Assembly: GCA_018814305.1 (NCBI GenBank) | Contig: JAHJAA010000072.1 | Location: forward strand, 1-35,121 | Length of the DNA stretch: 35,121 bases | Source of the DNA: Pseudomonadota bacterium | GTDB taxonomy: Bacteria; Desulfobacterota; Desulfobulbia; Desulfobulbales; JAGXFP01 | Reading direction: 5' to 3' | Shown: positions 535-23,747 of the stretch, piece by piece | Numbering within the stretch: position 1 is the first letter of the stretch | Layout of the letters: each line of letters opens with the position of its first letter | The notes under the pieces: generated by a model | Databases searched by the model: none | Told to the model about the DNA's origin: nothing | The model's input: the letters and a program-made list of their open reading frames with translations, nothing else | Translations under genes and position numbers: made by a program

Positions 535-1221
535 ATGGACAGAATATTTATTTCATTGAAGGATGTTGCGGCAAACCTGGGTGTTTCTGAGAAAACCATC
601 TATCGGATGGTGAGCAACAATCAGATCCCCTTTGCCATCAAGATCGGCGGACAGTGGCGGTTCAAGGCGGATGAGATCGGTGGTTGGATCAATAGCCGAA
701 AGTCGGGGGGAGCTCCCCCCCTTGCGACGATCAACGATCGGATTACCCTGACCGAAGCGATTAACAATGGGGCGATTCTTTATCGACTCCACGGCAATAA
801 TCGGGATGAGGTCATCGATGAACTGCTGGCGGCGCTGCCGTACTCCCCGACCATTGATCCTGTCGCAACCAAGGTGTCGATCCTTTCCCGGGAGTCCATT
901 GCCTCGTCGTCATTGGACGGTATCGCCTTTATGGCAACGGCACAGGCCTTGCCAGTGTTTTTGGAGAGGACCATGATGATCCTGGCTTTTCTCGAAAAAC
1001 CGGTGAATTTCAAGGCCATGGACGGACGGAAAACCGAGGCGCTGTTTTTGGTGTTACCGGCCAATCCACCCGAGCAGGAGATTCTTGAACGACGCCTCCA
1101 GCGACTGACCATGGACCCGGAGTTTCGGGCCAGTCTGCGCAAGCAGATGACCCGCAAAAATCTCATTGATTTTATTGAGACCAGTGAGAAAGCGACCTTT
1201 CGGGGACCGGCGAAAAAATGA
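535..1221 (+). CDS. HTH (excisionase/MerR-like) regulator with degenerate PTS EIIA-like domain
   Basis: Predicted cytoplasmic DNA-binding regulator of 228 residues. Residues about 5-55 form the helix-turn-helix of the excisionase/HTH_17 family (SLKDVAANLGVSEKTIYRMV, then the GGQWRFKADEI wing). Residues about 70-220 resemble a PTS EIIA type-2 (PtsN-like) domain: the I-L-S-R-E-S-I-A-S-S-S-L-D-G-I-A run matches the EIIA segment before the active site, and the FLEKPVNFKAMDG segment also fits. Where EIIA has IPHGK with its phosphorylated His, this protein has FMATA (His replaced by Ala, about residue 134), so classical phosphotransfer is unlikely. The stop overlaps the start of the following membrane subunit (ATGA), so the regulator is translationally coupled to the complex and probably controls it. 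Ligand and DNA target are unknown. The start at 535 has only a weak Shine-Dalgarno sequence. Confidence 0.82.
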   Translation: MDRIFISLKDVAANLGVSEKTIYRMVSNNQIPFAIKIGGQWRFKADEIGGWINSRKSGGAPPLATINDRITLTEAINNGAILYRLHGNNRDEVIDELLAALPYSPTIDPVATKVSILSRESIASSSLDGIAFMATAQALPVFLERTMMILAFLEKPVNFKAMDGRKTEALFLVLPANPPEQEILERRLQRLTMDPEFRASLRKQMTRKNLIDFIETSEKATFRGPAKK

Positions 1222-3197
1222 ATCTGCTGTTTTGGTCATGGGGCATTCTGCTGGTCGGCGGTCTGGCGGCCCTGTTTCCTGGCCTGCCTCGACAATTCGC
1301 CCGGTGGCTCGGTTGTTGTTCCGCCGTGGCAGGTTGTATATTTGGCCTTGGGGCTACGATCGATTCCCTGGGCCATGGCCCGGCGACATACATGTATCCC
1401 TGGACCGTCCCTGGAGGGGCTGTCTCCCTGTCGATCGATGGACTGGCTGCCTTTTTTCTTGTGCCGATCTTCCTGATCGGCCTCCTGGGCGCGATCTATG
1501 GGTTCGGGTATTTAGCTGATTCATCTTCCCGGACTCCCGGGAAGATCTGGTTTTTTTATAACCTCCTGATCCTCTCCATGACCCTCGTGGTGACGGCGGC
1601 CAACGGGATGCTTTTTCTGGTGGCGTGGGAAGTTATGTCTTTGAGCTCATTTTTTCTGGTTATTGATGATCATAAGCAATCCGAAGTTCGCCGAGCCGGA
1701 TTGCTTTATTTGCTGGCCACCCATCTGGGCGGGGCCTGCCTCTTTGCCTTTTTTCTCGGGGCCGGCACTCTATGCGGCAGCCTGGAATTTTCCGTCTTTT
1801 CGAGGCTTGCAACCCTTCCACCAATTGCGGCATCAACCCTCTTTTGCTTGATGCTCCTTGGTTTCGGAAGCAAAGCGGGCCTCTTTCCCCTGCATGTCTG
1901 GTTGCCCGAGGCCCACCCGGCCGCGCCCAGCCATGTTTCGGCGTTAATGTCCGGAGCGATGGTCAAGGTAGGGATTTACGGAATGCTTCGCATGCTGTCA
2001 TTTTTTTCGGTGACCCCGGCCTGGTGGGGCTGGCTGATGATCGTGGCCGGCCTCGGCGGCGCCCTGTTCGGGATCGGGATGGCTGCCACTCAGTCTGACC
2101 TAAAACGGAGTCTGGGATATTCCACCGTGGAGAATATCGGGATCATTTTTTTTGCTTTGGGATTCTGGTTAATCGCCCGGGCCGAGGGACATACCCTGGC
2201 CGCGTCCCTGGCGCTGACCGGCGGTCTTCTCCATATCTGGAATCACGCCCTGTTCAAAAGTCTGCTCTTCTTTGGCGCCGGTTCGATCCTTCATGGCAGC
2301 GGGTCACGAAATCTGAACCGGATGGGTGGCTTGCTCGGCCGTATGCCGGTAACCGGCCTGACCCTGGTTGCCGGGGCCATGGCGGTGGGGGCGCTGCCTC
2401 CCATGAACGGATTAGTGGGGGAGTGGTTTATCTATCGGGCCCTAATTGAATCGGGGGGAGAGGCCCAAGGGATGGCGGGATTTTACCCGCTTGTTCTAAT
2501 GGGGCTCCTGGCCCTGGTCGGAGGCATGGTCATTCTCGTCTTTACCCGGCTGATCGGGATTGCCTTACTCGGTCAGCCCCACCACCACTCCGCGACTACG
2601 GCCCATGAGTCGGGGTGGCCCATGCTTGCTCCCATGATGGTTCTGACCGGACTCTGCTTGGTCGCAGGGGTGCTGCCGACCCTGTTGATGGGGCCGGTTG
2701 CCGCTGCCGGTGCAATCCTTGGCCATCCTCTGCTCCTGCCAAGGAAAGAATGGATTTCGGCAATGTGGCTAGGACTTGGCGGGGGTGGAATCATTCTGAT
2801 GATTGGAATGGTTGTAATCGTAACGAAAATATTTTCGCGAAAAGGTTCGGTGGGATCGGCCTCGACCTGGGGGTGTGGATTCCAAGTACCAACATTCCGG
2901 ATGTCGTACAGTGCCGAAGGCTATGTGGAACTGGCCCAGAAAGGATTGTTCTGCAGCTGTCTGCGTCCTCAAATCAGCGGAGGGCGAGCGATCAGCCTCT
3001 TTCCCGGGCCTGCAGAACTGTTCCATCGTTCAACCGATTTAGTCCTGACCAGATTGTATCACCCAGTCTTTGCCCGAAGCGCCGATCTCTGTAGCCGGTT
3101 ACGAAGAGTTCAGGCCGGGATCGTTCATCTCTATCTCTTCTATATCTTTCTGGCCACCATCCTGCTGTTGGGGTGGGTGGCTCACTTTCAAGGTTGA
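1218..3197 (+). CDS. hyfB-like: Hyf/Ehr-type membrane subunit, NuoL/HyfB-like antiporter module (first copy)
   Basis: A 659-residue polytopic inner-membrane protein of the proton_antipo_M (NuoL/MrpA/HyfB) family. It is expected to be a proton- or sodium-translocating arm of a respiratory complex. Seen in the sequence: many hydrophobic helices, the family signature LPEAHPAAPSHVSALMSGAM (about residues 229-248), DLKRSLGYSTVENIGII (about 294-310), the NHALFKSLLFFGAG block, and the HyfB-type C-terminal STWGCGF motif. The ATG overlaps the stop of the upstream regulator. A 110-base gap separates it from the next gene, with a candidate internal promoter. A second, diverged homologue sits at 8727-10709, so the complex has two NuoL-like subunits. 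Family assignment is firm; the transported ion is not known. Confidence 0.93.
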   Translation: MNLLFWSWGILLVGGLAALFPGLPRQFARWLGCCSAVAGCIFGLGATIDSLGHGPATYMYPWTVPGGAVSLSIDGLAAFFLVPIFLIGLLGAIYGFGYLADSSSRTPGKIWFFYNLLILSMTLVVTAANGMLFLVAWEVMSLSSFFLVIDDHKQSEVRRAGLLYLLATHLGGACLFAFFLGAGTLCGSLEFSVFSRLATLPPIAASTLFCLMLLGFGSKAGLFPLHVWLPEAHPAAPSHVSALMSGAMVKVGIYGMLRMLSFFSVTPAWWGWLMIVAGLGGALFGIGMAATQSDLKRSLGYSTVENIGIIFFALGFWLIARAEGHTLAASLALTGGLLHIWNHALFKSLLFFGAGSILHGSGSRNLNRMGGLLGRMPVTGLTLVAGAMAVGALPPMNGLVGEWFIYRALIESGGEAQGMAGFYPLVLMGLLALVGGMVILVFTRLIGIALLGQPHHHSATTAHESGWPMLAPMMVLTGLCLVAGVLPTLLMGPVAAAGAILGHPLLLPRKEWISAMWLGLGGGGIILMIGMVVIVTKIFSRKGSVGSASTWGCGFQVPTFRMSYSAEGYVELAQKGLFCSCLRPQISGGRAISLFPGPAELFHRSTDLVLTRLYHPVFARSADLCSRLRRVQAGIVHLYLFYIFLATILLLGWVAHFQG

Positions 3198-3261
3198 GGT
3201 CGAACCGGGATGATCATTTGTATTCTTATATCCTTGCAGAACAGGCTCCCTGCTCTACGCT

Positions 3262-3276
3262 GGGGACTGTGTTTGC
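3262..3276 (+). promoter_or_regulatory. candidate sigma-54 promoter (weak) before hyfC-like gene
   Basis: GG at 3263-3264 and TTGC at 3273-3276 have the exact -24/-12 spacing (ten bases between GG and GC). The -24 half (GGGGACT) matches TGGCACG only partly. The predicted start (about 3288) would leave a 20-base leader before the ATG at 3308, which carries an AGGAG ribosome binding site. GG-N10-GC is common by chance, so this is tentative. Confidence 0.3.
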
Positions 3277-3307
3277 CAAATAATTTTCTGCAATCAGGAG
3301 TTTCATC

Positions 3308-4219
3308 ATGATCCTTCGTCTGTTGCTCCATCTCCTGTTGCTCTTCATGCTTGCCCCGTTATTGGCGGGGATTATCGGCAAGACCAAAGCCACCTTTGCC
3401 GGACGAACCGGGGTGCCCTTTTTTCAGCTGTATTGGGATCTTGGCAAGCTCTTCAAGAAAGGGGTGGTGATCAGTCGGACAACTTCCTGGATCTTTCGGA
3501 CCGGACCGGTGATCGGACTGGCCGTTCCACTTCTAGCCGCTCTATTTTTACCCTTCGGACCAGTCGGGGCGGTATTCAGCTTCAACGGGGATCTGATTTT
3601 CTTTGTTTATCTTTTTGCCCTGGCCCGATTTTTCACGGCCACGGCGGCCCTTGATACCGGATCATCGTTCGAGGGAATGGGTGCCGTCCGGGAGGTCACC
3701 TTCTCCTGTCTGGTCGAGCCGACCCTCTTTTTTATCTTGATCGTCCTGGTGCGTCTTTCCGGCTCCTTGACCCTTTCTGGAATGTTCGGACCCACCCTGG
3801 TTGCCAGCTGGCATAGTGCCGGAGCCTCCTTGATCATCATCCTGGTCTGTCTTCTGGTGGTAACCCTGGTGGAAAATTGCCGGATCCCCTTTGACGATCC
3901 CAATACCCATTTGGAACTGACTATGATTCATGAGGTTATGGTTCTTGATCACAGCGGCCCAGATCTCGGACTGATTCTCTATGGGGCTGCAATGAAACTT
4001 CTGATCTTCGGGGCCATGTTGGTGCGCTTGATTTTGCCCTTCTCTCTGGGCAACTTCTGGCTGGATCTAATGCTGTTTATCGTCGGTCTCTGCGGACTCG
4101 CAGGGTTGATCGGGGTGATCGAATCGATCATGGCCCGGCTGCAGCTGCTGCGAATCCCGCAGTTGTTGATCGGCACCTCGTTGCTCTCTTTTTTCTCCGT
4201 GATTCTGCTGTTGAGGTGA
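3308..4219 (+). CDS. hyfC-like: Hyf/Ehr-type membrane subunit, NuoH/HyfC-like
   Basis: A 303-residue inner-membrane protein of the respiratory-chain NADH dehydrogenase subunit 1 family (NuoH/HyfC/HycD/EchB). In related complexes this subunit joins the Fe-S arm to the membrane arm. It has about eight hydrophobic helices. The charged loop after the first helix (KTKATFAGRTGVPFFQLYWD) and the acidic motif ENCRIPFDDPNTHLELTMIHE (about residues 189-209) are diagnostic. The latter corresponds to the NuoH loop that forms the quinone/cluster-side cavity. AGGAG lies seven bases before the ATG. The next gene follows after three bases. Confidence 0.93.
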   Translation: MILRLLLHLLLLFMLAPLLAGIIGKTKATFAGRTGVPFFQLYWDLGKLFKKGVVISRTTSWIFRTGPVIGLAVPLLAALFLPFGPVGAVFSFNGDLIFFVYLFALARFFTATAALDTGSSFEGMGAVREVTFSCLVEPTLFFILIVLVRLSGSLTLSGMFGPTLVASWHSAGASLIIILVCLLVVTLVENCRIPFDDPNTHLELTMIHEVMVLDHSGPDLGLILYGAAMKLLIFGAMLVRLILPFSLGNFWLDLMLFIVGLCGLAGLIGVIESIMARLQLLRIPQLLIGTSLLSFFSVILLLR

Positions 4220-4222
4220 TGG

Positions 4223-4861
4223 ATGGAAAATTTTGCCAATATTCTGCTGTTACTCGTGATCCTGCTCAATTTTTTTATCCTGGGTTCAGCCCGGCTCGGG
4301 GCCTGTATTCGGTCGGTGGCCCTGCAGGGGGCGATGCTCTCGCTGGTCCCGGTCCTCTTGCACCATGGCTCGCCCCACTCACTCATTTTGGGGGGAGCCG
4401 CCCTGCTCCTCAAAGGTTTCTTCATGCCCTGGCTCTTGTTCCGAGCCATTCGCCAGGTTCAGATTCGCCGGGAGATCGAACCAATGATCGGCTATGTCCC
4501 GACCCTGTTACTGGGGACCCTGGCCACGGCCGGCGCTTTTATTTTCAGTGATCAGCTGCCATTAATCGAGGCCCACAAAGGATCCCTTGCCATCCCCTGC
4601 GGACTGGCCACCCTGGCTGCAGGTTTTTTGATGCTCATCACCCGGCGCAAGGCTCTGACCCAGGCTCTGGGGTATCTGATCTTTGAAAACGGGATCTATA
4701 TTTTCGGGGTGCTCCTCTCTGAGGCCCTGCCCCTAATGGTTGAGGCCGGGGTCTTGCTCGATCTGCTGGCGGCAATATTCGTGATCGGCATTGTCATGAA
4801 CCAGATCAATCGGGAGTTCGCCTCCCTGAATGTCCAGAATTTATCGTCACTGAGGGAATAA
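4223..4861 (+). CDS. hyfE-like: Hyf/Ehr-type membrane subunit, HyfE-like
   Basis: A 212-residue hydrophobic protein with about seven transmembrane segments, matching hydrogenase-4 component E (HyfE) in length, hydropathy and genome position between HyfC-like and HyfF-like genes. HyfE resembles a NuoK-like (MrpC-like) subunit extended by extra helices. A conserved-looking acidic stretch (EAGVLLDLLAAIFVIGIVMNQI, about residues 174-195) sits in the last helix region and could take part in ion translocation. It lies three bases after the HyfC-like gene and two bases before the HyfF-like gene. The assignment rests mostly on context and hydropathy. Confidence 0.85.
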   Translation: MENFANILLLLVILLNFFILGSARLGACIRSVALQGAMLSLVPVLLHHGSPHSLILGGAALLLKGFFMPWLLFRAIRQVQIRREIEPMIGYVPTLLLGTLATAGAFIFSDQLPLIEAHKGSLAIPCGLATLAAGFLMLITRRKALTQALGYLIFENGIYIFGVLLSEALPLMVEAGVLLDLLAAIFVIGIVMNQINREFASLNVQNLSSLRE

Positions 4862-4862
4862 T

Positions 4863-6290
4863 ATGCAGTATCTCCTGGTCATAGTCCCTATTCTTGGCGG
4901 TCTGATTGCCCTGGCCCTGCCCTCAGACCGCTTTAGACCCTGGCTCCTGCCGCTCTGCGGTTTTATCCATCTCACCCTGGTTCTGACGATACTCATTCAG
5001 GGGGCACCCGATCCGGGGGGGCATTGGCTGGGAATTGATGCCTTAAGCCGGTTACTCCTGCTCCTGATCAGTCTGCTCTTTGTCAGTTGCGCGGTGTATG
5101 GGGTGGGCTATCTCCGTTTCCGTCTGGCCTGGGGTAACCGGGTCTTTGTCACGTGTCTGCTCTTCTTCTTGGCGGCCATGAGTCTTGCCGCCCTGGCCCG
5201 TCATTTAGGAATTCTTTGGGTTGCGGTGGAGGCCACCACCCTGGCCAGCGCGCCATTGATTTACTACAACCGCAACCGACTCTCCATTGAAGCCACTTGG
5301 AAATACCTGCTGCTCTGCTCAGTGGGGATCGCCCTGGCCATGCTCGGGATCCTTTTCGTGGCCTATGCCGCCATGCCCAGCGACCCGATCAGTCTGCAGT
5401 TCGATGATATGCTGCGAGAGGCTGCCGGTTATTCCCGGACCTGGCTTCGGGCCGGATTCGTCTTCCTGCTGATCGGTTTCGGCACCAAGGTCGGTTTTGC
5501 CCCACTCCATACCTGGAAGCCCGATGCCTACGGCGAAGCGCCGGGGATGGTCGGCGCCTTGCTGGCCGGAGGGCTGACCAGCGTCGCCTTTCTTGCCCTG
5601 CTCCGTACCATGCAGATCATGATTGCGGCCCATGAGGGGGTAGTAGCCCACCAGGCCTTCCTCATCATGGGATTTGTTTCGTTGTTCTTTGCGGCCGTCT
5701 TTGTCATCCGTCAACCTGATTTCAAGCGGCTGCTTGCATACTCCAGTGTGGAGCATATGGGAATCCTCGCCATCGGGGTGGGGATTGGGGGAATAGCTAC
5801 CTTTGGGGCCATGCTCCACATGATGAATAATGCTTTGACCAAGGGGGTGCTGTTTCTGTCGGCCGGCAATATCCACCGCAGGTTCAATAGCAAGGTGGCC
5901 AGCGAGGTGCGGGGGGCGGTATCCGTGGTGCCGCTTTCGGCCTGCCTGTTCCTCGCCGGTTTTCTGGCAATCACCGGTTCCCCGCCCTTTGGGCTTTTTA
6001 TCAGTGAGTTCACTATTCTTCAGGGGATCTTTGCCACCGGCCATTATGCCGCCGGGGCCTATTTCCTGACCATGCTTGCAGTCATCTTTATCGGAATGGC
6101 AACCACCATCCTGACGGTGGTCTTCGGCACCCCCCTGGAAGGGCGGAAGCAGACCGAATACCGGGATTCCTGGCTGACCGGGGGGGCGCCGCTTTTTCTT
6201 CTGGGCCTGGTTCTGCTGATGGGTATTGTTCTGCCGGAGCCGGTCCGGAGGATCTTTATCGATGCCGCCGCCCTGGTGGAGGGCCTGTGA
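4863..6290 (+). CDS. hyfF-like: Hyf/Ehr-type membrane subunit, HyfF/NuoN-like antiporter module
   Basis: A 475-residue proton_antipo_M protein, shorter than the two HyfB-like subunits and typical of hydrogenase-4 component F. Seen: about fourteen hydrophobic helices, the VEATTLASAPLIYYNR motif (E in helix 5, about residue 121), FGTKVGFAPLHTWKPDAYGEAP (about 208-229) with the conserved Lys, PDFKRLLAYSSVEHMG, and an MMNNALTKGVLFLSAGN helix. It is the third antiporter-like module of the complex. The stop codon TGA at 6288-6290 overlaps the ATG of the large subunit, so the two are translationally coupled. Confidence 0.93.
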   Translation: MQYLLVIVPILGGLIALALPSDRFRPWLLPLCGFIHLTLVLTILIQGAPDPGGHWLGIDALSRLLLLLISLLFVSCAVYGVGYLRFRLAWGNRVFVTCLLFFLAAMSLAALARHLGILWVAVEATTLASAPLIYYNRNRLSIEATWKYLLLCSVGIALAMLGILFVAYAAMPSDPISLQFDDMLREAAGYSRTWLRAGFVFLLIGFGTKVGFAPLHTWKPDAYGEAPGMVGALLAGGLTSVAFLALLRTMQIMIAAHEGVVAHQAFLIMGFVSLFFAAVFVIRQPDFKRLLAYSSVEHMGILAIGVGIGGIATFGAMLHMMNNALTKGVLFLSAGNIHRRFNSKVASEVRGAVSVVPLSACLFLAGFLAITGSPPFGLFISEFTILQGIFATGHYAAGAYFLTMLAVIFIGMATTILTVVFGTPLEGRKQTEYRDSWLTGGAPLFLLGLVLLMGIVLPEPVRRIFIDAAALVEGL

Positions 6291-7816
6291 TGACTGAATC
6301 AGTTTATTTGAAAAACGGCGGCATGACCCCAGTCGCCGCCATTCCCCGTCTAGAGTATGGCGATTTCGGTCAAGCCATCGTAACCCAAGTCCAAAAAGGG
6401 CAGGCCCGGGTGGCCGCCTATTTTGCCGTTCTTAGCGATGAGCCGGGGGCCGTTCTGGAGATCTTTGCGATCCTGGCCCGAGAACGGCATGGGGACCTGG
6501 CCGTCTTTCGAACCCTGGTGGGAGAGCGCTTTGAGTCATTGACCCCGAACTGTTCCCAGGTTCATCTGTTTGAGCGGGAGATTGCCGAACAGTTCGGGGT
6601 GATCCCGGAGGGGCATCCCTGGCTGAAACCGGTTCGCTTCCACCGTTCCTGGCGACCGGACCATGATGCCTGGGGCCGAGACCCCGCAGCCCATCCCCTG
6701 GTTGGGGACCTTGATTTTTACCGGATCGACGGTGACGGGGTCCATGAAGTAGCGGTGGGGCCGGTCCATGCCGGGGTCATCGAACCGGGTCATTTCCGTT
6801 TCCAGTGCTACGGAGAAACGGTTATGCATCTGGAGATCTCCCTGGGGTATCAGCATCGTGATCTTGAAAGGATGTTGCTGGGGGGGCCGCATCCCGCCAC
6901 CCCCTCACAGATTGAGACCATCGGCGGCGATAGCACTGTTGCCCATATGAGCGCCTACAGCAAGGTCATCGAGGGACTGACCGGCTGCCCGGCGCCAGCT
7001 CGGGCCAAGGCGATCAGGGCCCTTGGCTTGGAGCTTGAGCGATTGGCCAATCATGTCGGGGATCTCGGCGCCTTGTCCGGTGATGTGGGGTTCCTGCCCA
7101 CCGCGTCATACTGCGGTCGGTTACGGGGGGATTATCTCAACATGACCGCCCACCTCTGCGGCAGTCGTTTCGGCCGGGGGCTGGTTCGGCCCGGTGGGGT
7201 TTTGTTCGATCTGCAATCGTCGCTCTCTGCCCGGATTCTAGCCGCGCTGGAAGATTGTGAAGCCAATACCATCGGGGCTATCCGGCTCTTTTTTGACACC
7301 CCGTCAGTGTTGAGCCGTTTGGAGGGGATTGGTCGGTTATCCCGTTCCGCCGCCGAAGATTTAGGACTGGTTGGGGTGGCAGCCAAGGCCTGCGGGGTTC
7401 CCCGGGACTGTCGTTTCTTTTTCCCCACCGGCATCTATCAGCAGGAATTCGATGAATTGATTACCGATGAAAACGGTGATGTCTTTGCCCGGGCCCGGGT
7501 CAGAAGCCGGGAGGTGGAGGTCTCACTGGGGCTCGTCCGGCGGATTCTCGGCAATTTACCCAAGGGAGAGACCATGATTCCGATGGGGCCTCTGCCGCCG
7601 GAGAGTCTGGCGGTAACCCTGGTTGAGGGCTGGCGTGGTGAGGTAGTTCATGTGGGATTGACCGATGGGACCGGGTCTTTTCGCCGGTATAAGATCGTCG
7701 ACCCCTCGTTTCACAACTGGAGTGGCCTGGCCTTGGCCCTGCGCGACCAGCAGATCTCTGATTTTCCGTTATGCAATAAGAGTTTCAACCTGTCGTATGC
7801 TGGTTTTGACTTATAA
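6290..7816 (+). CDS. hyfG-like: NuoCD-fused, HyfG/EhrL-like large subunit lacking all Ni-binding cysteines
   Basis: About 508 residues. Residues 1-135 match the NuoC/30-kDa domain and about 150-508 match the NuoD/[NiFe]-hydrogenase large subunit of group 4 (HycE/HyfG). Group 4 enzymes bind Ni with CGIC near the middle and CxxC at the C terminus. Here the equivalents are IGGDS (Gly about 212, Ser about 215) and LSYAGFDL (Ser about 502, Gly about 505), so all four ligands are gone. There is also no C-terminal maturation peptide after the second motif. Surrounding family features persist (HRDLER, LELERLANHVGDLGALSGD, SFHNWSG). Hydrogen chemistry is therefore excluded, as in the Ehr (energy-converting hydrogenase-related) complexes known in Geobacter and relatives. 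The ATG at 6290 was preferred to the GTG at 6287 because it forms a TGATG overlap with the previous stop. Confidence 0.93.
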   Translation: MTESVYLKNGGMTPVAAIPRLEYGDFGQAIVTQVQKGQARVAAYFAVLSDEPGAVLEIFAILARERHGDLAVFRTLVGERFESLTPNCSQVHLFEREIAEQFGVIPEGHPWLKPVRFHRSWRPDHDAWGRDPAAHPLVGDLDFYRIDGDGVHEVAVGPVHAGVIEPGHFRFQCYGETVMHLEISLGYQHRDLERMLLGGPHPATPSQIETIGGDSTVAHMSAYSKVIEGLTGCPAPARAKAIRALGLELERLANHVGDLGALSGDVGFLPTASYCGRLRGDYLNMTAHLCGSRFGRGLVRPGGVLFDLQSSLSARILAALEDCEANTIGAIRLFFDTPSVLSRLEGIGRLSRSAAEDLGLVGVAAKACGVPRDCRFFFPTGIYQQEFDELITDENGDVFARARVRSREVEVSLGLVRRILGNLPKGETMIPMGPLPPESLAVTLVEGWRGEVVHVGLTDGTGSFRRYKIVDPSFHNWSGLALALRDQQISDFPLCNKSFNLSYAGFDL

Positions 7817-7825
7817 GGTGATTTT

Positions 7826-8575
7826 ATGATTCAGGTGTTGCTTGAACGATATCGACAGGGGTTTCGGACCGGGGCGTTTCCCAGGCTGGAGCCGGTTTTG
7901 CCGGAGCGTTTTCGGGGGTTGCCGATATTTGGAGGTTGTCCAGCCAACTGCCGGGAATGTGAGACCACCTGCCCGTTCGGGGCCTGCCAGGTTGTCGACA
8001 GTCAGGTGATCGTCGATCTTGGCCGATGTCTGTTCTGTGCCGATTGCCCTGCCTGTGTTCATGGTCGGCTATCGTTCTCCACTGAGTATCGTCTGGCCGC
8101 CGACCGTCGTGAAGGGTTGAGGTATGGCGGAGGGACCTATTCACCGGCTGAGGGCCTGGAACCAAAGCTCAAAAAGCTCTTTGGGCGCTCCCTTAAATTG
8201 CGCCAGGTTTCCGCCGGTGGATGCAATGGGTGTGAGGCGGACTGCAATGTTCTCGGCACCCTGGTCTTTGATCTGGGCCGCTTCGGCATCCAGTTTGTCG
8301 CCTCCCCCCGCCATGCCGACGGGATCCTGGTGACCGGACCGGTCAATGAAAATATGCGAAGCGCCCTCCTCGATACCTATGCGGCCATCCCGGAGCCGAA
8401 AATTGTCATCGCCTCCGGAGCCTGCGCCATCAGTGGCGGTCCCTACCAGGAGAGTACTGAAGGATGCCGGGGAGTCAGTGAACTAGTACCGGTGGATCTT
8501 TTTGTCCCTGGATGCCCGCCCCATCCCTATACCTTGTTGGACGGGTTATTGCGGATGCTGGGGAAAAGAAAATGA
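7826..8575 (+). CDS. hyfI-like: Fused two-[4Fe-4S] ferredoxin and NuoB/HyfI-like small subunit
   Basis: A 249-residue iron-sulfur protein that joins two functions usually on separate HyfH and HyfI polypeptides. Residues about 35-80 carry a ferredoxin-like pattern: Cys 38, 42, 45, 49 and Cys 68, 71, 74, 77, enough for two [4Fe-4S] clusters. Residues about 120-245 are NuoB-like, with the ligands of the proximal N2-type cluster preserved: CNGCE (133, 136), the Cys in SGACAISGG (200) and PGCPPHP (230). Electrons would run from the ferredoxin part to the N2-like cluster at the interface with the large subunit. AAGGTG precedes the ATG by six bases. A gap of about 150 bases follows before the last subunit. 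Confidence 0.92.
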   Translation: MIQVLLERYRQGFRTGAFPRLEPVLPERFRGLPIFGGCPANCRECETTCPFGACQVVDSQVIVDLGRCLFCADCPACVHGRLSFSTEYRLAADRREGLRYGGGTYSPAEGLEPKLKKLFGRSLKLRQVSAGGCNGCEADCNVLGTLVFDLGRFGIQFVASPRHADGILVTGPVNENMRSALLDTYAAIPEPKIVIASGACAISGGPYQESTEGCRGVSELVPVDLFVPGCPPHPYTLLDGLLRMLGKRK

Positions 8576-8667
8576 AAAGAGGGCCTCAAGTTAAAAGTTC
8601 ATAAAATACCTATTGTTGTGGAATCTTTTTTACAATCGGATAGGGGTGTTTGAAGCGGTATCCAGAG

Positions 8668-8682
8668 TGGCACGATGCTTCC
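8668..8682 (+). promoter_or_regulatory. candidate sigma-54 promoter before second HyfB-like gene
   Basis: TGGCACG-ATGC-TTCC: the -24 half is a perfect consensus and the spacing is right. The -12 half has TTCC in place of TTGC (one mismatch, in the conserved G). The predicted start near 8694 would give a 33-base leader before the ATG at 8727. Confidence 0.4.
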
Positions 8683-8726
8683 GTTCCTCCTTCCTGACTT
8701 CTTCCTTCGGATAACGAAGAGATCTT

Positions 8727-10709
8727 ATGTTTATGCAACTCTATCTCATCGCTGTTGTCATGACAGCCTTATCAGGTCTTCCGGCACTCATCGGGATGGG
8801 GACCGGTAAGGGGGAAAGGGTTGCGGCATATCTTCTGGCGGCGGGTTGTCTGGTGGGGCTGGGCGGGATCATTGGGGCGCTCTTTTTACCCCAACCGCCG
8901 GGGGTCGGTCTGCCCTGGGAGTTACCAGGAGCGCACTTGCTGTTGCGGCTGGATGGGCTGGCTGCGGTTTTTCTGCTGCCCGCTTTTTTGATTGGCGGTC
9001 TGGGGAGCCTTTATGGTCTGGGCTATTGGCCCGGATCACGATACGGTATGGGAGCTGGATGGCTCCGGGTTTTTTATGGGCTGCTGGTGGCGAGTCTCGT
9101 CGTACTGCCTGCCTGCCGCAACGGGATTCTCTTTCTGCTGGTCTGGGAGGTCATGGCAGTGAGCGGGTTTCTGCTGATCCTGGCCGAACATCTTTTACCT
9201 GAAGCCCGGCGAGCCGCCCTGATCTATCTTGTGGCCACCCATACCGGCACCCTGGCCCTCTTTGGGCTCTTTGCCCTCCTGGCCCAGGTCTCGGGGTCCT
9301 TTGATTTTCCCAGTCCCGGCACCCTTGCTGGTGGCACCGGATGGGCTTCGGCCATCTTCTTGCTGGCGCTCTTCGGCTTTGGAATCAAGGCCGGTCTGAT
9401 ACCGTTCCATATATGGCTGCCCGAGGCCCATGCAGCAGCCCCCAGTCATGTCTCAGCCCTGATGAGCGGGGTAATGATCAAGATGGGGATCTACGGGATC
9501 ATCAGGGTGGTTAGTTTCTTCGCGACCATCCCGGTATGGTGGGGATGGACCGTTTTGATCCTGGGCGCGGTCTCCGGGGTGATGGGGGTGGTTTTTGCCC
9601 TGGCCCAGCATGATATCAAACGGCTCCTCGCCTACCACAGCGTTGAGAACATCGGCATCATCCTGCTGGGCTTGGGTCTGGCCCTCCTGGGCCGGAGCTA
9701 TGACCTGCCGGAACTGACAGCTCTGGGTCTGGCCGGGGCGCTACTCCATGTGATCAACCACGGACTTTTTAAATCGCTGCTCTTTCTGGCGGCCGGTTCG
9801 GTGATCCAGGCCACCGGGACGCGGCGAATCGATCTTTATGGGGGACTCCACCGACAGATGCCGGTCACTGCCCTCTGTTTTCTCGGTGGCGCCGTGGCGA
9901 TCTGCGGGTTGCCGCCTTTGAATGGCTTTGTCAGTGAATGGTTGATCTATCTGGGGATTTTTCAGGGTCAGACCGCCCAGGCCCCGTTACCTCTTAGCTT
10001 AACGCTGCTCATCGCACCGACGCTCGCCCTGATCGGCGGTCTGGCTCTGGCCTGTTTCGTCAAGGTCTACGGGGTCACCTTTCTCGGCGAGGCTCGCCAT
10101 GAATGGCCGAAACCTGTGGGTGAGTCCCCTCTCAGCATGCGTTTACCCATGGTGGTGATTCTCGGCTGCTGTCTTGCCATCGGGCTGTTCCCGGCCTTGG
10201 TCCTGCCCCTGCTGCAATCGGCCGAAGCTGCCTGGCGGCCCGGGTCCGTGGTCAGTGAACTCTCCATCGGCCTGGCTCCGGTTGGCTGGATAAGTCTGAG
10301 CGCGGGGCTGCTCATTCTGATCTCCTGGTCCATTTTTATGAGGCAGCAGATATCCTGGCGGGAGAGTCTCCCGCGGCCTTCCACCTGGGGATGTGGTTAT
10401 CTAAAACCAACCTCGACCATGCAGTACACCGCCACCTCCTTTGCTGAGATAATCACCGGTCTTTTCCGCTGGGGACTGTGGAGCGAAATCCGCCAAGTCG
10501 GTTCCCGCCGTTTCTTCCCCGATTCAGCCAATTTCAGCATTCATACCCCCGATATCATCCTTGATCGGCTGATCTTTCCTCTCTCCGGCTTCGTCAGCCG
10601 CATCGCCTTCATGATCCGCTCCATCCTCCACCATGGCATCATCGGGATCTATCTTCTCTACATCTGCCTGACCCTGGTTTTTCTGCTCATTTTTGTACTT
10701 GGTTTTTGA
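8727..10709 (+). CDS. hyfB-like: Hyf/Ehr-type membrane subunit, NuoL/HyfB-like antiporter module (second copy)
   Basis: A 660-residue polytopic membrane protein of the same family and length as the 1218-3197 product. The two share LPEAHAAAPSHVSALMSGVM, DIKRLLAYHSVENIGII, NHGLFKSLLFLAAGS, LPPLNGFVSEWLIY and the C-terminal STWGCGY block, but they are clearly diverged paralogues rather than a recent duplication. It stands about 150 bases after the small subunit, with its own candidate sigma-54 promoter, so its amount may be set separately. With the HyfF-like subunit it gives the complex three antiporter-like modules. Gene function within the complex is inferred from context. Confidence 0.92.
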   Translation: MFMQLYLIAVVMTALSGLPALIGMGTGKGERVAAYLLAAGCLVGLGGIIGALFLPQPPGVGLPWELPGAHLLLRLDGLAAVFLLPAFLIGGLGSLYGLGYWPGSRYGMGAGWLRVFYGLLVASLVVLPACRNGILFLLVWEVMAVSGFLLILAEHLLPEARRAALIYLVATHTGTLALFGLFALLAQVSGSFDFPSPGTLAGGTGWASAIFLLALFGFGIKAGLIPFHIWLPEAHAAAPSHVSALMSGVMIKMGIYGIIRVVSFFATIPVWWGWTVLILGAVSGVMGVVFALAQHDIKRLLAYHSVENIGIILLGLGLALLGRSYDLPELTALGLAGALLHVINHGLFKSLLFLAAGSVIQATGTRRIDLYGGLHRQMPVTALCFLGGAVAICGLPPLNGFVSEWLIYLGIFQGQTAQAPLPLSLTLLIAPTLALIGGLALACFVKVYGVTFLGEARHEWPKPVGESPLSMRLPMVVILGCCLAIGLFPALVLPLLQSAEAAWRPGSVVSELSIGLAPVGWISLSAGLLILISWSIFMRQQISWRESLPRPSTWGCGYLKPTSTMQYTATSFAEIITGLFRWGLWSEIRQVGSRRFFPDSANFSIHTPDIILDRLIFPLSGFVSRIAFMIRSILHHGIIGIYLLYICLTLVFLLIFVLGF

Positions 10710-11186: not shown

Positions 11187-11951
11187 ATGAGGAAAGACAT
11201 AATGAACAAATCCAAAGGATATTCAAAGAAAATGTTTCTGGCAGTACTCCTCGGTACTTTTGTAGCTGGCGGCGCAAGCGCTCAAGTCGGCAGCGGTCCG
11301 ATGCCGGTAGATCTTGGCAACGCGGATACTTTCGCGATTCTGAGCCAAACCGGAATCACCAACGTTTATCGCTCTGCTATTGTTGGGGATGTTGGCACGA
11401 GTCCCATAACCGGGGCAGCTCTCCTGCTCACCTGCGGGGAAGTGTCGGGGAAGGTATTCACCGTCGACGCGGCTGGTCCTCTACCCTGCGCTTGGACTGA
11501 CGCCACCTCCCTGACTGCGGCGGTGGGCGATATGGGATTCGCTTACAACGATGCGGCGGGTCGACTTTTCCCTGATTATTCTGAACTTGGCGCCGGTGAG
11601 ATTGGTGGGCTAACCCTCCCTCCGGGCCTCTACAATTGGATTTCAGGTCTTCTGATTAGTTCGGATGTCACGCTCTCGGGCGGCCCGGACGATGTCTGGA
11701 TCTTCCAGGTGGCGGGAACGCTGAACCAGGCCAACGCTACGCGGGTTACGCTAGCCAACGGAGCTTTGGCCAAGAACATCTTCTGGCAGGTCGCTGGCGC
11801 AGTGACTCTTGGAACCAATTCCCATTTTGAAGGGGTTGTCCTGGGTAAAACCATGATCGCCGTGAATACCGGCACATCGGTTACCGGCCGACTGTTGACG
11901 CAGACTGCGGTTACTCTTCAGATGAATGCGATTACTGAGCCCGCCGAGTAA
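11187..11951 (+). CDS. Secreted DUF3494 (ice-binding-like/adhesin) protein
   Basis: A 254-residue exported protein. A Sec signal peptide covers residues 1-32 (hydrophobic run MFLAVLLGTFVAG, cleavage after ASA). The rest is a single DUF3494 domain (Pfam ice-binding-like beta-solenoid). Seen: VDLGNADTFAILSQTGITN, the IVGDVGTSP turn, GLTLPPGLYNW, GPDDVWIFQVAG, and NIFWQVAGAVTLGTNSHFEG near the C terminus. Members are known as ice-binding proteins in cold organisms and as surface or adhesive proteins elsewhere; ice binding is not implied here. AAGGAGG at 11174-11180 with a six-base spacer supports the ATG at 11187. The second ATG at 11202 is possible. It has a perfect sigma-54 promoter and shares its C-terminal fold with the lipoprotein at 17473. 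Confidence 0.9.
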   Translation: MRKDIMNKSKGYSKKMFLAVLLGTFVAGGASAQVGSGPMPVDLGNADTFAILSQTGITNVYRSAIVGDVGTSPITGAALLLTCGEVSGKVFTVDAAGPLPCAWTDATSLTAAVGDMGFAYNDAAGRLFPDYSELGAGEIGGLTLPPGLYNWISGLLISSDVTLSGGPDDVWIFQVAGTLNQANATRVTLANGALAKNIFWQVAGAVTLGTNSHFEGVVLGKTMIAVNTGTSVTGRLLTQTAVTLQMNAITEPAE

Positions 11952-17472: not shown

Positions 17473-20190
17473 ATGAAAAGAATTAAGATACGGAACGCTT
17501 ATCTTGGGTTCACGTTAATGCTGACTGTTTTTATGGCCGGCTGTGGTAATGGATGGGATGAAGCCACTCCTGCGAATGATACGACCGCACCTGCCGTGAC
17601 ATTCACAATACCTGTTAATGGTGCAACAGGAGTTTCAGGCAACAACAAAATAAGCGCTACTTTCACTGAAGAGATGGACCCCCTAACGATCACCCCAGCA
17701 ACATTTATCGTAAAACAGGGAACAACGGCAGTTGAGGGTGCTATGGACTACACCGGTTTAACCGCGGTTTTTACCTCGAATGGCGACTTATTCGCCAGCA
17801 CCACCTATACCGCCATGATTACCAGCGGCGCCAAGGATCTCGCCGGGAATGCCCTGGCGGTTGACAAGGTCTGGACCTTTACTACCGGGGCGGTTCAGGA
17901 CACCATTGCCCCGACCGTGACGCTCACCGACCCTGCTGCCGGCGCGGGAGAAGTAGCCCTCAACAAGAAAATCGCCGCTACCTTTAGTGAGGCAATCGAC
18001 CCGGTTACGATCACTGCGGCGACATTTACTTTAACGCAAGGGGTAACGCCTGTAGCAGGTACAGTGAGCTATATCGGTCTGGTTGCGACTTTCTCTCCGG
18101 CAAATAATCTTGCCACCAGCACCACCTATACCGCCACGATTACCACCGGGGCCAGGGACCTCGCGATCCCAGGCAACGGTCTGGCGGTTGATAAGGTCTG
18201 GACCTTTACCACCGGTGCGTTTTCTGACACCATCGCTCCGACCGTAACCCTCACCGACCCTGCCGCCGGCGCTGGAGATGTGGCCCTCAATAAGAAAATT
18301 GCCGCTACCTTCAGTGAGATGATGGACGTCGCCACGATTACCACTTTGACTTTTACCTTGAAACAGGGGGAAACGGTTATTGATGGTACGGTAACCAATG
18401 TCGGTCTGGTTGCAACTTTTTCTCCGTCAGCCAATCTTCTCGCCGGTACCACCTATACCGCCACGGTTAAAACCGGGATCGAAGATCTGGCCGGTAACGG
18501 CCTGGCCGTTGATAAGGTCTGGACCTTTACCACCGGTGCGGCCCCGGACATCATTGCTCCGACCGTGACCTTCACCGACCCTGCCGCCGGCGCGGGAGAT
18601 GTGGACCTCAATAAGAAAATCGCCGCTACCTTCAGTGAGATGATGGACGTTGCCACGATCAACAATCTGACCTTTACCTTAAAACAAGGGGAAACGGTTG
18701 TTGATGGGACGGTAACCAATGTCGGTCTGGTTGCAACTTTTTCTCCGTCAGCCAATCTTCTCGCCAGCACCACCTATACCGCCACGGTTAAAACCGGGAT
18801 CGAAGATCTGGCCGGCAACGGTCTGGCCGTTGACAAGGTCTGGACCTTTACCACCGGTGCGGCCGCTGATATCATTGCCCCAATTGTAACTCTTACTGAC
18901 CCCGCTGATCTCGCCACCGGTGTCGCCCTCAACAAGAAAATCTCCGCAACCTTCAGTGAGGCGATGGACGCTGAAACCATTAATACGGCGACCTTTACCT
19001 TGAGCCAGGGAGCAAGGGCTGTCTCAGGCACGGTGGCCAATGTTGGCGTAACCACGGTCTTTACTTCAGTAAACGATTTCGAAGCTGAGACCATCTATAC
19101 CGCTACGATTACCACCGGAGCCCAGGATTTGGCCGGTAATACCCTGGCCAATGACAAGGTCTGGACTTTTACCACCGGTGCGGCCCCGGAAACCATTGCC
19201 CCAACTGTAACTCATATCGATCCTGCGTCCGGCAACTTTGACGTGGCTGTCAGTAAGAGAGTATCCGCAACCTTCAGTGAGGCGATGGACCCATTGTCGA
19301 TCACCAATCAGACATTCACCCTGAAGCAGGGGACAACGATTTTGGATGGCGCGGTGACCTATGTTGGTTTGGTTGCAGGCTTTACTCCAACATACTGGCT
19401 TGCCACGAATACCGTCTATACCGCTACGATTACTACCGCAGCCATGGATCTCGCCGGCAATCACCTGGAATTTGACAAAGAATGGACCTTTACTACCGTT
19501 GATTTGCAACCGAGGTATTTGCCACCGGTAGATCTTGGCACGGCCGGAGATTTTGTAATTCTGTCAAAAGCAGGGGTATCCACGACGGGAACCACCGCAA
19601 TTGTTGGAGATATTGGAGTTAGCCCATCAGCAGCTTCATACCTTACTGGATTTGGCCTGATCATGGATCCATCGAATGAATTTTCAAAGTCGGCTCTCGT
19701 GACCGGCAAGCTCTACGCAGCCGACTATGCGGTTCCAACTCCGGCGAAGATGACCACGGCAATCAGCAACATGGAAACGGCCTACACCGATGCCGCCGGT
19801 CGATCATTGCCCGATTTCACCGAACTCTACGCCGGAAATATCACCGGCCTTACCCTCGTTCCCGGCCTCTACAAGTGGGGTAGCGGGGTTTTAATCTCCA
19901 GTGGCGGCGTTACCCTTACGGGTGGTGCAAATGACGTCTGGATCTTCCAGATTGCCCAGGACCTCACCGTAGCCGATGGCGGAGCTATAGTAACCCTCGG
20001 CGGCAATGCTCAGGCCAAGAACATCTTCTGGCAGGTCGCCGGCCAGGCAACCCTTGGGACGACGGCGCAATTCAAGGGAATTATCTTGTGTAAAACCGCG
20101 ATCGTGCTGAATACCGGCGCCACGTTAGTTGGCAGGGCGTTGGCCCAGACCGAAACTACATTAATCGCCAATACCGTCACGGCCCCGTAA
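17473..20190 (+). CDS. Surface lipoprotein: six Big_5 Ig-like repeats plus C-terminal DUF3494 domain
   Basis: A 905-residue exported lipoprotein. The signal peptide ends in a lipobox (FMAGC, lipidated Cys 24). Six Ig-like SbsA/Big_5 domains follow, at about 37-139, 142-248, 251-356, 358-463, 465-570 and 572-676. Each begins (D/E)xxAPxVT and closes with K-x-W-T-F-T-T. The C-terminal 686-903 is DUF3494: VDLGTAGDFVILSKAG, IVGDIGVSP, GLTLVPGLYKW, GANDVWIFQIAQ, NIFWQVAGQATLG. The layout is that of a stalk that displays a binding head, consistent with a surface adhesin. AAGGAGA precedes the ATG by seven bases. It is transcribed away from the kinase gene and ends in a clear terminator, so it is monocistronic. 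The ligand is unknown. Confidence 0.92.
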   Translation: MKRIKIRNAYLGFTLMLTVFMAGCGNGWDEATPANDTTAPAVTFTIPVNGATGVSGNNKISATFTEEMDPLTITPATFIVKQGTTAVEGAMDYTGLTAVFTSNGDLFASTTYTAMITSGAKDLAGNALAVDKVWTFTTGAVQDTIAPTVTLTDPAAGAGEVALNKKIAATFSEAIDPVTITAATFTLTQGVTPVAGTVSYIGLVATFSPANNLATSTTYTATITTGARDLAIPGNGLAVDKVWTFTTGAFSDTIAPTVTLTDPAAGAGDVALNKKIAATFSEMMDVATITTLTFTLKQGETVIDGTVTNVGLVATFSPSANLLAGTTYTATVKTGIEDLAGNGLAVDKVWTFTTGAAPDIIAPTVTFTDPAAGAGDVDLNKKIAATFSEMMDVATINNLTFTLKQGETVVDGTVTNVGLVATFSPSANLLASTTYTATVKTGIEDLAGNGLAVDKVWTFTTGAAADIIAPIVTLTDPADLATGVALNKKISATFSEAMDAETINTATFTLSQGARAVSGTVANVGVTTVFTSVNDFEAETIYTATITTGAQDLAGNTLANDKVWTFTTGAAPETIAPTVTHIDPASGNFDVAVSKRVSATFSEAMDPLSITNQTFTLKQGTTILDGAVTYVGLVAGFTPTYWLATNTVYTATITTAAMDLAGNHLEFDKEWTFTTVDLQPRYLPPVDLGTAGDFVILSKAGVSTTGTTAIVGDIGVSPSAASYLTGFGLIMDPSNEFSKSALVTGKLYAADYAVPTPAKMTTAISNMETAYTDAAGRSLPDFTELYAGNITGLTLVPGLYKWGSGVLISSGGVTLTGGANDVWIFQIAQDLTVADGGAIVTLGGNAQAKNIFWQVAGQATLGTTAQFKGIILCKTAIVLNTGATLVGRALAQTETTLIANTVTAP
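18226..18867 (+). repeat. near-identical tandem Ig-repeat units (321-bp period)
   Basis: Units 18226-18546 and 18547-18867 of the lipoprotein gene (third and fourth Big_5 domains) are nearly identical in DNA, including synonymous sites (both contain AATGTCGGTCTGGTTGCAAC). The other four units are more diverged. This indicates recent unit duplication and a site where repeat number could vary between strains. Confidence 0.85.
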
Positions 20191-20646: not shown

Positions 20647-22698
20647 GTGCGTTCAATTTTCCCCATACTTGTATTGACCTTATTGGCCCAGACGGCCGGT
20701 GCCCAGGAAGTCCGGCAGGAACTCGACGAGGTGGTGGTGACCGCCTCCCGGGTCTCCGAAAAGATCAAGGATACCCCGGTGAGTGTCAGTCTGCTCACCA
20801 ACCAGGAGCTTGAGACGATCAAAGCCAGAAACCCCGAGGAATTCCTCACCACCATCCCCGGCATCAACTCCCAGGGATTCGGCGGCGAATCGGAGTTAAC
20901 CGCCATCCGGGTCCCGACCCATTTCACCAATCCCTACACCATCGTCCTGGTCGACGGGGTCCCCACCGCCAGTTACGGCTCCGGCAGTTCCAGCCAGTTT
21001 CTGGGAATCAACAACGACAACATCGCCCGGATCGAGATCATCAAAGGACCGGCCTCAGCACTTTACGGCAGTAACGCCATCGGCGGGATCATCAATGTGA
21101 TCACCAAGGAGCCTTCCGCTACCCCCCAGGCCACGATTCGCAGCGAGATCGGCGATTATCATCAGGTCCGTTCATCCCTTTCCGGCAGCGGCGGCACTGG
21201 CCGATACGGTTTTAACGTCGATCTCAGCCAGGTGGACAGCGACGGCTGGCGCGAACACTCATCGCTTGAGAAAGAAGCCGCCTCGGTCAAGGTCAACTAC
21301 ACCCCCAACGACATCTCCCTGCTCTCCTTCAAGACCGACTTTATCCGCTCGGAAAACGATTCTCCGGGCTCCATTTCCGAAGCCGACTTCAAGTCCGACT
21401 GGCAGCACAGTTATCACTCCTTTGCCTATAACGAGTCCGACAAGCTCGCCCCGGCCCTCACCTATAACCTCTACCTGGACGAAGCCGAGTTCCGGGCCAC
21501 CCTGGCCATGCGGGATGTGGAGGAGAAAAGCATTCCCAACTACTCCATCCGGCAACTTACCTATGGCCGGCAGCCCCGGCCCTATATCGGCAGTCTGAAC
21601 AGCTCCGACGCCACCGACTTCAACCTGCAGCTGTTCTACAGCCATAACCTGAGCCTCGCCCGGGCCCGGATCAACACCGGCCTCGACCTGGTCAACGGCA
21701 CCAACGACTCCAAGTCCTATGACCTGGCTGTGACCATGGACCCCATCACCAATCGCTATGAATCCTATACCGTCGGCGATCTGGCCAAGTCATACGATAT
21801 CACCACCACGGTCCTCGCCCCCTATCTCCAGCTGGAATTCTCCCCCCTTACCAGACTGCGTTTGTCCGCCGGCGGCCGTTATGACGCCGCCACCTATGAA
21901 GTGGATGACCGTCTGGGCGGCGGCACCGGCGGCGACAAGGACTTTTCCCAGTTCAGTCCCAAGGCGGGACTCACCTACGAGATCAGCCCGGCCCTCAATG
22001 GCTACCTCAATTACTCCGATGGTTTCGTGGTCCCGACCACCAGCCAGCTCTGGACCTCACGGTACGGCAATCACCGATTGAGCCCGGAAAAGGCCAGAAA
22101 CTATGAAATCGGGCTACGCAGTTCCTTCTGGGAAAAACGGCTGCGGATCGACTGCTCGGTCTATACCATGGACATCAAGGACAAGATCGTGGTCAATGAC
22201 GACAGCACCCTCTACATCAATGCCGGCAAGGCCACCCAAAGGGGGATAGAATTTCAGGCAACCATCCTCCCCATCGACCATGTCCGCCTGAATCTGTCCT
22301 ACACCTATGCCGAAAACGAATATGACTCCTATGTCACCGGCGGTATCGACTACAGCGGCAACACCCAGCCACGCTCGCCGGCCAATCACCTGAATGCCAG
22401 ACTGATCATCGAGCCCCTCACCAACCTGGAAGTGGAACTCGAGCTGGATACCGTCAGTCACCAGTTCGCCGACGAGGCCAACCTCTACTCCTATGACCGC
22501 CCCGACCTCTTTCACCTGCGGACCAGCTACGACTGGCGGAGCTGGTCCGGCTGGGTGCATATCCTCAACCTGACCGACGAAGAATATGCCACCTATGTGA
22601 GCGCCAGCACCAGCGAGGACTTCATGTCCCTTTACTCCGGGGCGCCACGCACCTTCTATGCCGGTCTTTCCTACCATTGGGGAGGAGGATCAAAATGA
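20647..22698 (+). CDS. TonB-dependent outer-membrane receptor
   Basis: A 683-residue outer-membrane beta-barrel. The start is GTG, chosen because AGGAGA lies six bases before it and the signal peptide begins there (cleavage near residue 18-20, TAGA/QEV). A TonB box DEVVVTASR follows at about residues 27-35. The plug covers about 40-155 (NPEEFLTTIPGINSQG, IVLVDGVPTASYGS, RIEIIKGPASALYGSNAIGGIINVITK). The barrel ends in the canonical aromatic-rich C-terminal strand (TFYAGLSYHWGG). It is the first gene of a nine-gene operon that also supplies its own TonB, ExbB and ExbD. Its resemblance is to the vitamin B12/siderophore class (FepA/CirA/BtuB-like). The imported ligand is unknown. Confidence 0.95.
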   Translation: MRSIFPILVLTLLAQTAGAQEVRQELDEVVVTASRVSEKIKDTPVSVSLLTNQELETIKARNPEEFLTTIPGINSQGFGGESELTAIRVPTHFTNPYTIVLVDGVPTASYGSGSSSQFLGINNDNIARIEIIKGPASALYGSNAIGGIINVITKEPSATPQATIRSEIGDYHQVRSSLSGSGGTGRYGFNVDLSQVDSDGWREHSSLEKEAASVKVNYTPNDISLLSFKTDFIRSENDSPGSISEADFKSDWQHSYHSFAYNESDKLAPALTYNLYLDEAEFRATLAMRDVEEKSIPNYSIRQLTYGRQPRPYIGSLNSSDATDFNLQLFYSHNLSLARARINTGLDLVNGTNDSKSYDLAVTMDPITNRYESYTVGDLAKSYDITTTVLAPYLQLEFSPLTRLRLSAGGRYDAATYEVDDRLGGGTGGDKDFSQFSPKAGLTYEISPALNGYLNYSDGFVVPTTSQLWTSRYGNHRLSPEKARNYEIGLRSSFWEKRLRIDCSVYTMDIKDKIVVNDDSTLYINAGKATQRGIEFQATILPIDHVRLNLSYTYAENEYDSYVTGGIDYSGNTQPRSPANHLNARLIIEPLTNLEVELELDTVSHQFADEANLYSYDRPDLFHLRTSYDWRSWSGWVHILNLTDEEYATYVSASTSEDFMSLYSGAPRTFYAGLSYHWGGGSK

Positions 22699-23747
22699 GC
22701 TGGCCCGTCGGGCAATTTACCCTCGCCCTCCTAGTGCTGGCGGGAACCGGCCTGGTGGATATGTCCGAGGTCGGCGCCACCCCTTCGTCACGACTCCCCC
22801 CTCTGCGCCTGCAACTGGCCCCCGCCACTCCGACTGGTGAAGTCTGTGATTCCCATGGCCCTGCCGCCCCCCCCAACCCTGGGAAAAAGGGCCGGGGGGG
22901 GAAAGGTGGAGGTCGTCCGGTCAGCGAATCCGAACATCAGCCGCAACCCGAGCGGACCTATTACCTGAGCAATCTGCGGCGACTGGCCCAGGTCACCGCC
23001 CTGGTTCGCCGCCCCGACGGTTCCCTGCTGGAACCCACCCTGCAACTGGGGGTGGATCCCAAGCTCTCCTTTGCCACCCCCATGGGCGATGGGCCGATTC
23101 ACGGGGCCAATACGGTCTATGTGATGGAGCAGGGCGTCGAGGAGGGAACCCTGGTGGTGCGGATTGCCCAATGGATTACCATGCATCATAACTGCGGTTG
23201 GGGGCACGAACATAAATTCGACGAACACCGGACCCAGCCCCAACCCCTGAGCGAGATTCCTCTCGAAATCGTGGCCAATGATCTCTGGGATACCAACTTC
23301 CATTCAAAGGTCACTTCCGGCCAGGCACTCGCCATCCGGGTCCTCCACAATGGCCAGCCGGTGGAAGGAGCCCGGATTACCGTAACCACCGAACAGCAAT
23401 GGCGGAAAGAAGTCACAACCGATGACGTCGGCCGGGCCACGGTCCAGCTGATCAGGGATTATTACCCATCCAGCTGGACGGACTTTAACCGCACCAAACG
23501 CTCGAGTTTTCTGCTCACCGCCACCTTTGAAACCAACCAGCCCGGCACCTTTCAGGGTGTCCCTTACGAGCGGGCAACCTATGTCACCACCCTCCCCTGG
23601 CATTACAGCCCGGCCCAAGCGGATTATTCATCGCGCCTGGCCGGGCTAACCATCTCCCTGGTCGGCCTGACCCTCACCGGCGGCGGGGTCTTTTTCTACC
23701 GGGAACGCCGTAAAAAACCCTCAGCCAGGATTGTCTTTGATGAATAG
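22695..23747 (+). CDS. Periplasmic membrane-anchored protein with His cluster and Ig-like (DUF4198-like) domain
   Basis: A 350-residue protein with an N-terminal signal sequence (about 1-28), a Gly/Lys-rich linker (about 62-74) and a C-terminal transmembrane helix (about 314-335) followed by a basic tail. The bulk is therefore expected in the periplasm. Residues 164-178 hold a striking His/Cys cluster (HHNCGWGHEHKFDEH), likely a metal site. Residues about 207-262 resemble the Ig-like part of DUF4198/NikM-type metal-uptake proteins (GQALAIRVLHNGQPVEGARI, then TTDDVGRATV). ATG at 22695 overlaps the receptor stop (ATGA) and follows GGAGGAGGAT. It could pass a metal or metal complex from the receptor to inner-membrane parts; that is inference. 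No close family was recognised. Confidence 0.78.
   Translation: MSWPVGQFTLALLVLAGTGLVDMSEVGATPSSRLPPLRLQLAPATPTGEVCDSHGPAAPPNPGKKGRGGKGGGRPVSESEHQPQPERTYYLSNLRRLAQVTALVRRPDGSLLEPTLQLGVDPKLSFATPMGDGPIHGANTVYVMEQGVEEGTLVVRIAQWITMHHNCGWGHEHKFDEHRTQPQPLSEIPLEIVANDLWDTNFHSKVTSGQALAIRVLHNGQPVEGARITVTTEQQWRKEVTTDDVGRATVQLIRDYYPSSWTDFNRTKRSSFLLTATFETNQPGTFQGVPYERATYVTTLPWHYSPAQADYSSRLAGLTISLVGLTLTGGGVFFYRERRKKPSARIVFDE

Follow-up and report, generated by a model that had tools for sequence, protein, structure and literature searches.

A complete operon for an energy-converting hydrogenase-related (Ehr) complex with a conserved pocket in place of the Ni ligands

The stretch of DNA analysed here (the window), a whole contig of 35,121 bases from an assembly of 4.15 Mb that is 97% complete, carries a complete Ehr (energy-converting hydrogenase-related) operon at positions 535-10709, whose large subunit, EhrL, is a NuoC+NuoD-like fusion without Ni ligands. 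The complex is confirmed as an ordinary member of an already described family, to which some comparative detail is added; the small points that are new are the exchange of a cysteine for alanine at position 504 of EhrL (C504A) and the loss of the phospho-histidine of the operon regulator in the window's subclade. Ehr complexes without NiFe ligands are already known (PMC6349859, PMC10284858, PMC3569383), one EhrL with such ligands having been noted (PMC3569383), and they have been regarded as hydrogenase relatives that may couple redox chemistry to charge translocation (PMC6349859). The literature consulted contains no biochemical study of an Ehr complex. The relevance of these complexes lies in their frequency in the phylum and in their position between the hydrogenases and complex I.

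The gene ehrL is an intact reading frame on the forward strand (6290-7816), running from an ATG at 6290 to a stop codon at 7816 and encoding 508 amino acids, and its start overlaps the stop codon of ehrD by one base. Both domains are recognised above the Pfam cut-offs, Complex1_49kDa (3e-36) in the NuoD part and Complex1_30kDa (2e-6) in the NuoC part, and a phmmer search against solved structures gives HycE of the E. coli formate hydrogenlyase first (7z0s, 2e-42), followed by Nqo4 and MbhL. An AlphaFold2 model of EhrL, made from a two-row alignment, was discarded (pLDDT 32.5).

Homologues were sought in 297 genomes from the phylum and in 58 closer relatives. In a quick tree, whose rows come from the sampled genomes and not from named reference Ehr sequences, the groups Ehr1 (59 rows), Ehr2 (9), Ehr3 (5) and NuoD (14) receive SH-aLRT values of 99, 98, 100 and 100, respectively, and the hydrogenases are not resolved as a single group. 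EhrL of the window is nested inside Ehr1, the main Ehr clade, apart from hydrogenases and NuoD, with L094 and L063 as its nearest rows. Counted by match strength (E up to 2.4e-69), Ehr1 or Ehr2 is present in 62 of the 297 phylum genomes, and a single-protein search of genome contigs with EhrL gave one relative, a Desulfobulbus MAG with 54% identity. As this is the only relative with a name, the order of the bacterium is taken to be probably Desulfobulbales. Besides Ehr, the window's own assembly encodes NuoD, several NiFe hydrogenase large subunits and DsrA.

The first-pass annotation of this DNA had placed the gene at 6290-7816, had read its former cysteine motifs as IGGDS and SYAG, and had concluded that all four Ni ligands were replaced by Gly or Ser. 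Coordinates and letters are correct, and the replacement is borne out by a common alignment in which the 74 sequences of the EhrL alignment are joined by 20 further same-phylum sequences: the four ligand columns are occupied in EhrL by Gly212, Ser215, Ser502 and Gly505 (C1 and C4 changed to Gly, C2 and C3 to Ser), versus CCCC in seven of seven same-phylum group 4 hydrogenase large subunits. The former first motif, G212-G-D-S215, is located at 6923-6934 and the second, S502-Y-A-G505, at 7793-7804 (both on the forward strand). No ligand column of EhrL holds a Cys in this alignment, and the two CxxC motifs that ligate Ni-Fe in group 4 [NiFe] hydrogenases are both missing, so that the normal binding of a Ni-Fe centre is predicted to be impossible. 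The replacements are common to the whole Ehr1 clade. Cysteines kept at shifted positions were also sought, and EhrL has none; for the family, one residue merits thought, Cys504 ('SYCG', between former C3 and C4), which is found in 57 of the 59 Ehr1 rows, the window (Ala) and L099 (Ser) being the exceptions. In Ehr2 this position is mostly Ser, with Ala in L093. The Ala504 codon of the window, GCT (7799-7801), lies at least two bases from both Cys codons, and thus one wrongly read base would not account for the Ala. Taking into account that the position varies in the window and in L099, Cys504 is not essential across the family.

The pocket emptied in this way is not in decay. In 58 non-redundant Ehr1 sequences, the loop GPVHAGVIEPGHFRFQ (residues 157-172; 6758-6805, forward strand), which contains Glu165, has a mean entropy of 0.08 versus 1.29 for residues 150-508, and the C-terminus (490-508) one of 0.12; only 5 of 344 windows along the protein are as conserved as the loop and 6 of 341 as the C-terminus, the former first motif being less exceptional (79 of 349). 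Asp214, Asn496, Lys497, Ser502 and Tyr503 form a near-invariant set in Ehr clades 1 and 2 which, as a set, is absent from the hydrogenases, NuoD and clade 3 of the alignment. The idea of a decaying hydrogenase remnant without function would agree with the disappearance of the four ligands and of the clade-conserved Cys504, and with one paper in which the Geobacter Ehr was called non-functional because it is unable to oxidise H2 (PMC13194489), but it is hardly credible, taking into account that all reading frames are intact, that EhrL of the window has zero changes at the sites invariant across all other Ehr1 members, that conservation in the former active-site segments is among the highest of the protein and that the whole clade has these replacements in common. 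Judged by residue conservation, the pocket argues against that published inference of non-function; being nearly unchanged across the Ehr family, it probably retains a specific function.

The identity of the acceptor was approached through the quinone-site residues of complex I, which the earlier annotation had proposed as a guide. Where the HMMER alignments are free of gaps, and with residues counted by hand, His38 and Tyr87 of Nqo4 correspond to Ile164 and Gly213 of EhrL, so that neither equivalent is present. The hydrogenase proton-gate Glu is kept, E21 of MbhL corresponding to Glu165 (HMMER alignment to 6cfw_L, residues counted by hand). Among the same-phylum rows, NuoD sequences keep THG and DY, hydrogenases show EEP or PEP, and Ehr1 and Ehr2 show IEP. 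Thus, four elements of the earlier reading fit the sequence (the Ehr identity, the absence of a normal NiFe site, ion pumping and a donor of the ferredoxin type), and its quinone acceptor is unsupported by the residues proposed for it. Complex I (NuoD/Nqo4) resembles Ehr in fold, in lost Ni ligands and in antiporter-type pumps, but has the quinone His/Tyr and the tandem-Cys N2 site, both absent from Ehr. The membrane-bound sulfane reductase (MBS) of Pyrococcus furiosus lacks equivalents of the quinone His and Tyr and also of E21 (PMC7684303), and therefore the Ehr combination, with its Glu, is its own. The pocket conforms to neither the complex I nor the MBS pattern, and the comparison names residues that can be tested (Glu165, Asp214, Lys497 and Tyr503).

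It is possible, although somewhat unlikely, that the pocket reduces something other than a quinone (a soluble organic molecule, for example) as ferredoxin is oxidised, in which case the Asp/Lys/Asn-rich Ehr signature would bind a polar substrate; the near-invariant set of Ehr1 and Ehr2 and the missing quinone residues speak for it, but the neighbourhoods of the operons contain no conserved partner gene that would hint at a substrate. A broader proposal, which we consider unlikely, is that Ehr1 and Ehr2 have, where the Ni-Fe site was, a polar pocket that is conserved and free of metal (GD[TS] plus NKS-x-N-x-SY-x-G) and in which an acceptor is reduced that no characterised relative of complex I uses, the protons arriving via the old hydrogenase Glu. 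Against a quinone acceptor, a full quinone pathway was not found in the Riflemargulisbacteria, which carry Ehr (PMC6349859). In its favour, a match to the UbiA family of prenyltransferases occurs in 62 of the 62 Ehr1/Ehr2-bearing genomes among the 297 (P = 0.07, a weak test), and UbiA was dropped as a discriminator of Ehr genomes because it is too common.

The wiring of the small subunit, EhrS (7826-8575, forward strand), is of the hydrogenase type as judged by its cysteine columns. An N-terminal ferredoxin domain with eight Cys (38, 42, 45, 49, 68, 71, 74 and 77), which would hold two ferredoxin-type clusters, is fused to a NuoB/MbhJ-like domain (Pfam Oxidored_q6, 2e-27; matches to MbhJ and MbhN) with four proximal-cluster Cys (133, 136, 200 and 230). 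Cys 49, 68, 71 and 74 are found in all EhrS rows with the ferredoxin domain and the other N-terminal Cys vary, so that one cluster has probably been lost in part of the family and kept in the window; Ehr2 lacks this domain. The proximal spacing, C133-x2-C136 (C133-N-G-C136), is that of hydrogenases, and EhrS has neither the tandem Cys-Cys found at cluster N2 of complex I NuoB nor the shortened motif of MBS (PMC7684303). This bears on the proposal that polysulfide is reduced at the proximal cluster, as in the Pyrococcus MBS, a hydrogenase relative that likewise has neither a NiFe centre nor the quinone residues (PMC7684303). Common superfamily membership and the DsrA of the host would suit it; nevertheless, it is very improbable, since MBS keeps two of the four Ni-site Cys and, its motif being shortened, provides no Cys for one iron of its proximal cluster (PMC7684303), neither of which is seen in the window, where EhrS has the CxxC spacing and four Cys, and since the E21 equivalent absent from MBS is kept in Ehr.

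The genes are closely packed and all on the forward strand, in the order regulator, EhrA1, B, C, D, L, S, EhrA2, which is also that of relatives' ehr loci. EhrA1 (1218-3197) is a HyfB/NuoL-like antiporter subunit (NCBIfam hydrogenase 4 subunit B, 2e-161, below the curated cut-off) with the lysines of GFGSK and HALFK kept, EhrB (3308-4219) a HyfC/NuoH-like membrane anchor (Pfam NADHdh, 7.5e-30), EhrC (4223-4861) a HyfE-like membrane subunit (NCBIfam hydrogenase 4 membrane subunit, 2e-22, below cut-off) and EhrD (4863-6290) a HyfF/NuoN-like antiporter subunit (NCBIfam hydrogenase 4 subunit F, 8e-94, below cut-off). Thus, as first annotated, the NuoC domain and all membrane subunits remain, and together with EhrL, a group 4 homologue without NiFe Cys, and EhrS, they make up the set that characterises Ehr. 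A second HyfB-like antiporter subunit, EhrA2 (8727-10709; NCBIfam and motifs), lies downstream; it is 38% identical to EhrA1, so the duplication is not recent, and it is found in the window's nearest relatives and L071 and missing from most other Ehr1 loci examined. The pump lysine motifs, GFGxK and a later [FT]K, are present in EhrA1, EhrA2 and EhrD.

The regulator (535-1221, forward strand) joins an excisionase-type helix-turn-helix to a PtsN-like EIIA domain (Pfam HTH_17 and PTS_EIIA_2). Its homologues in an alignment of 20 entries from ehr loci of both Ehr clades, two of them copies of one gene, in many cases carry a phospho-His motif (GIAIPH, GVALPH); in the subclade of the window this reads GIAFM/GIAWM, and the phospho-histidine is lost. 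Neither a flavin/NAD module nor a formate dehydrogenase is encoded in the ehr operon. Beside the ehr operons no recurrent neighbour was found except the regulator, Ehr subunits and one promiscuous signalling-type group, the flanking genes otherwise varying between genomes. In L074 and L075, Ehr1 and Ehr2 operons stand head to head in one genome, with a regulator between them in L074.

Taking into account the Cys clusters of EhrS, the kept proton-gate Glu and the pump lysines, a complex that oxidises ferredoxin and pumps ions is plausible, the role of ferredoxin being one that we infer from the EhrS domain only. The reading that is tentatively preferred, with somewhat less than even confidence, is that reduced ferredoxin would dock on EhrS and its electrons would pass to the proximal cluster, a two-electron acceptor being reduced in the polar pocket formed by Asp214, Ser215, Asn496, Lys497, Ser502 and Tyr503, while Glu165 would deliver protons and the energy would be coupled to H+ or Na+ export. 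The best candidate acceptor would be menaquinone, reached via the membrane-facing chamber common to the superfamily, with binding residues unlike those of complex I; this is a reasonable but unproven guess. It has also been considered that the complex runs in reverse, an ion gradient driving electrons uphill, for example from menaquinol, to a ferredoxin that would serve CO2 fixation or biosynthesis. Intact antiporter modules, an own assembly without RnfC above cut-off and the reverse electron transport proposed for the Geobacter complex (PMC7894505) are in line with this, but direction is not readable from sequence and Rnf and Ehr are not alternatives in the 58 relatives (Rnf in 13 of 29 Ehr-positive versus 4 of 29 Ehr-negative genomes), which makes it rather improbable. 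The idea that Ehr takes the place of Rnf was rejected, as the two, if anything, co-occur (P = 0.02, not corrected for kinship).

Among known systems, the Ehr of Geobacter sulfurreducens (GSU0739-0745) is likened to that of the window by published description, sharing the names EhrA-1, EhrC, EhrL and EhrS and the missing NiFe ligands (PMC7894505, PMC13194489, PMC6349859); the window differs in Ala504 and a His-less regulator, Geobacter being known here by description only. Levels of the GSU0739-45 proteins are higher on formate than under conditions that include hydrogen (PMC7894505). Formate hydrogenlyase and hydrogenase-4 (HycE, Hyf) share with the window the fused NuoC+D large subunit and a HyfB-, HyfC-, HyfE- and HyfF-like membrane arm, but the window has neither Ni ligands nor formate dehydrogenase, and its small subunit carries the fused ferredoxin domain.

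Rfam gave zero matches within the window. Outside the operon, two ice-binding-like (PF11999) proteins are encoded at 11187-11951 and 17473-20190, the latter with Big_5 repeats. A single run at 20647-29003 comprises a TonB receptor, a ferredoxin-type membrane protein, HGD-D with a BadF-type ATPase and a TonB protein, and resembles an uptake system combined with a reductase of the double-cubane type. The gene at 29665-30660 combines an IS200-like transposase domain with a weak match of the DnaA C-terminal type, and a caspase-like (Peptidase_C14) protein with TPR repeats is encoded at 33609-34868. In addition, a NiFe hydrogenase large subunit (G000:C86, L103) contains one in-frame TGA, possibly encoding selenocysteine.
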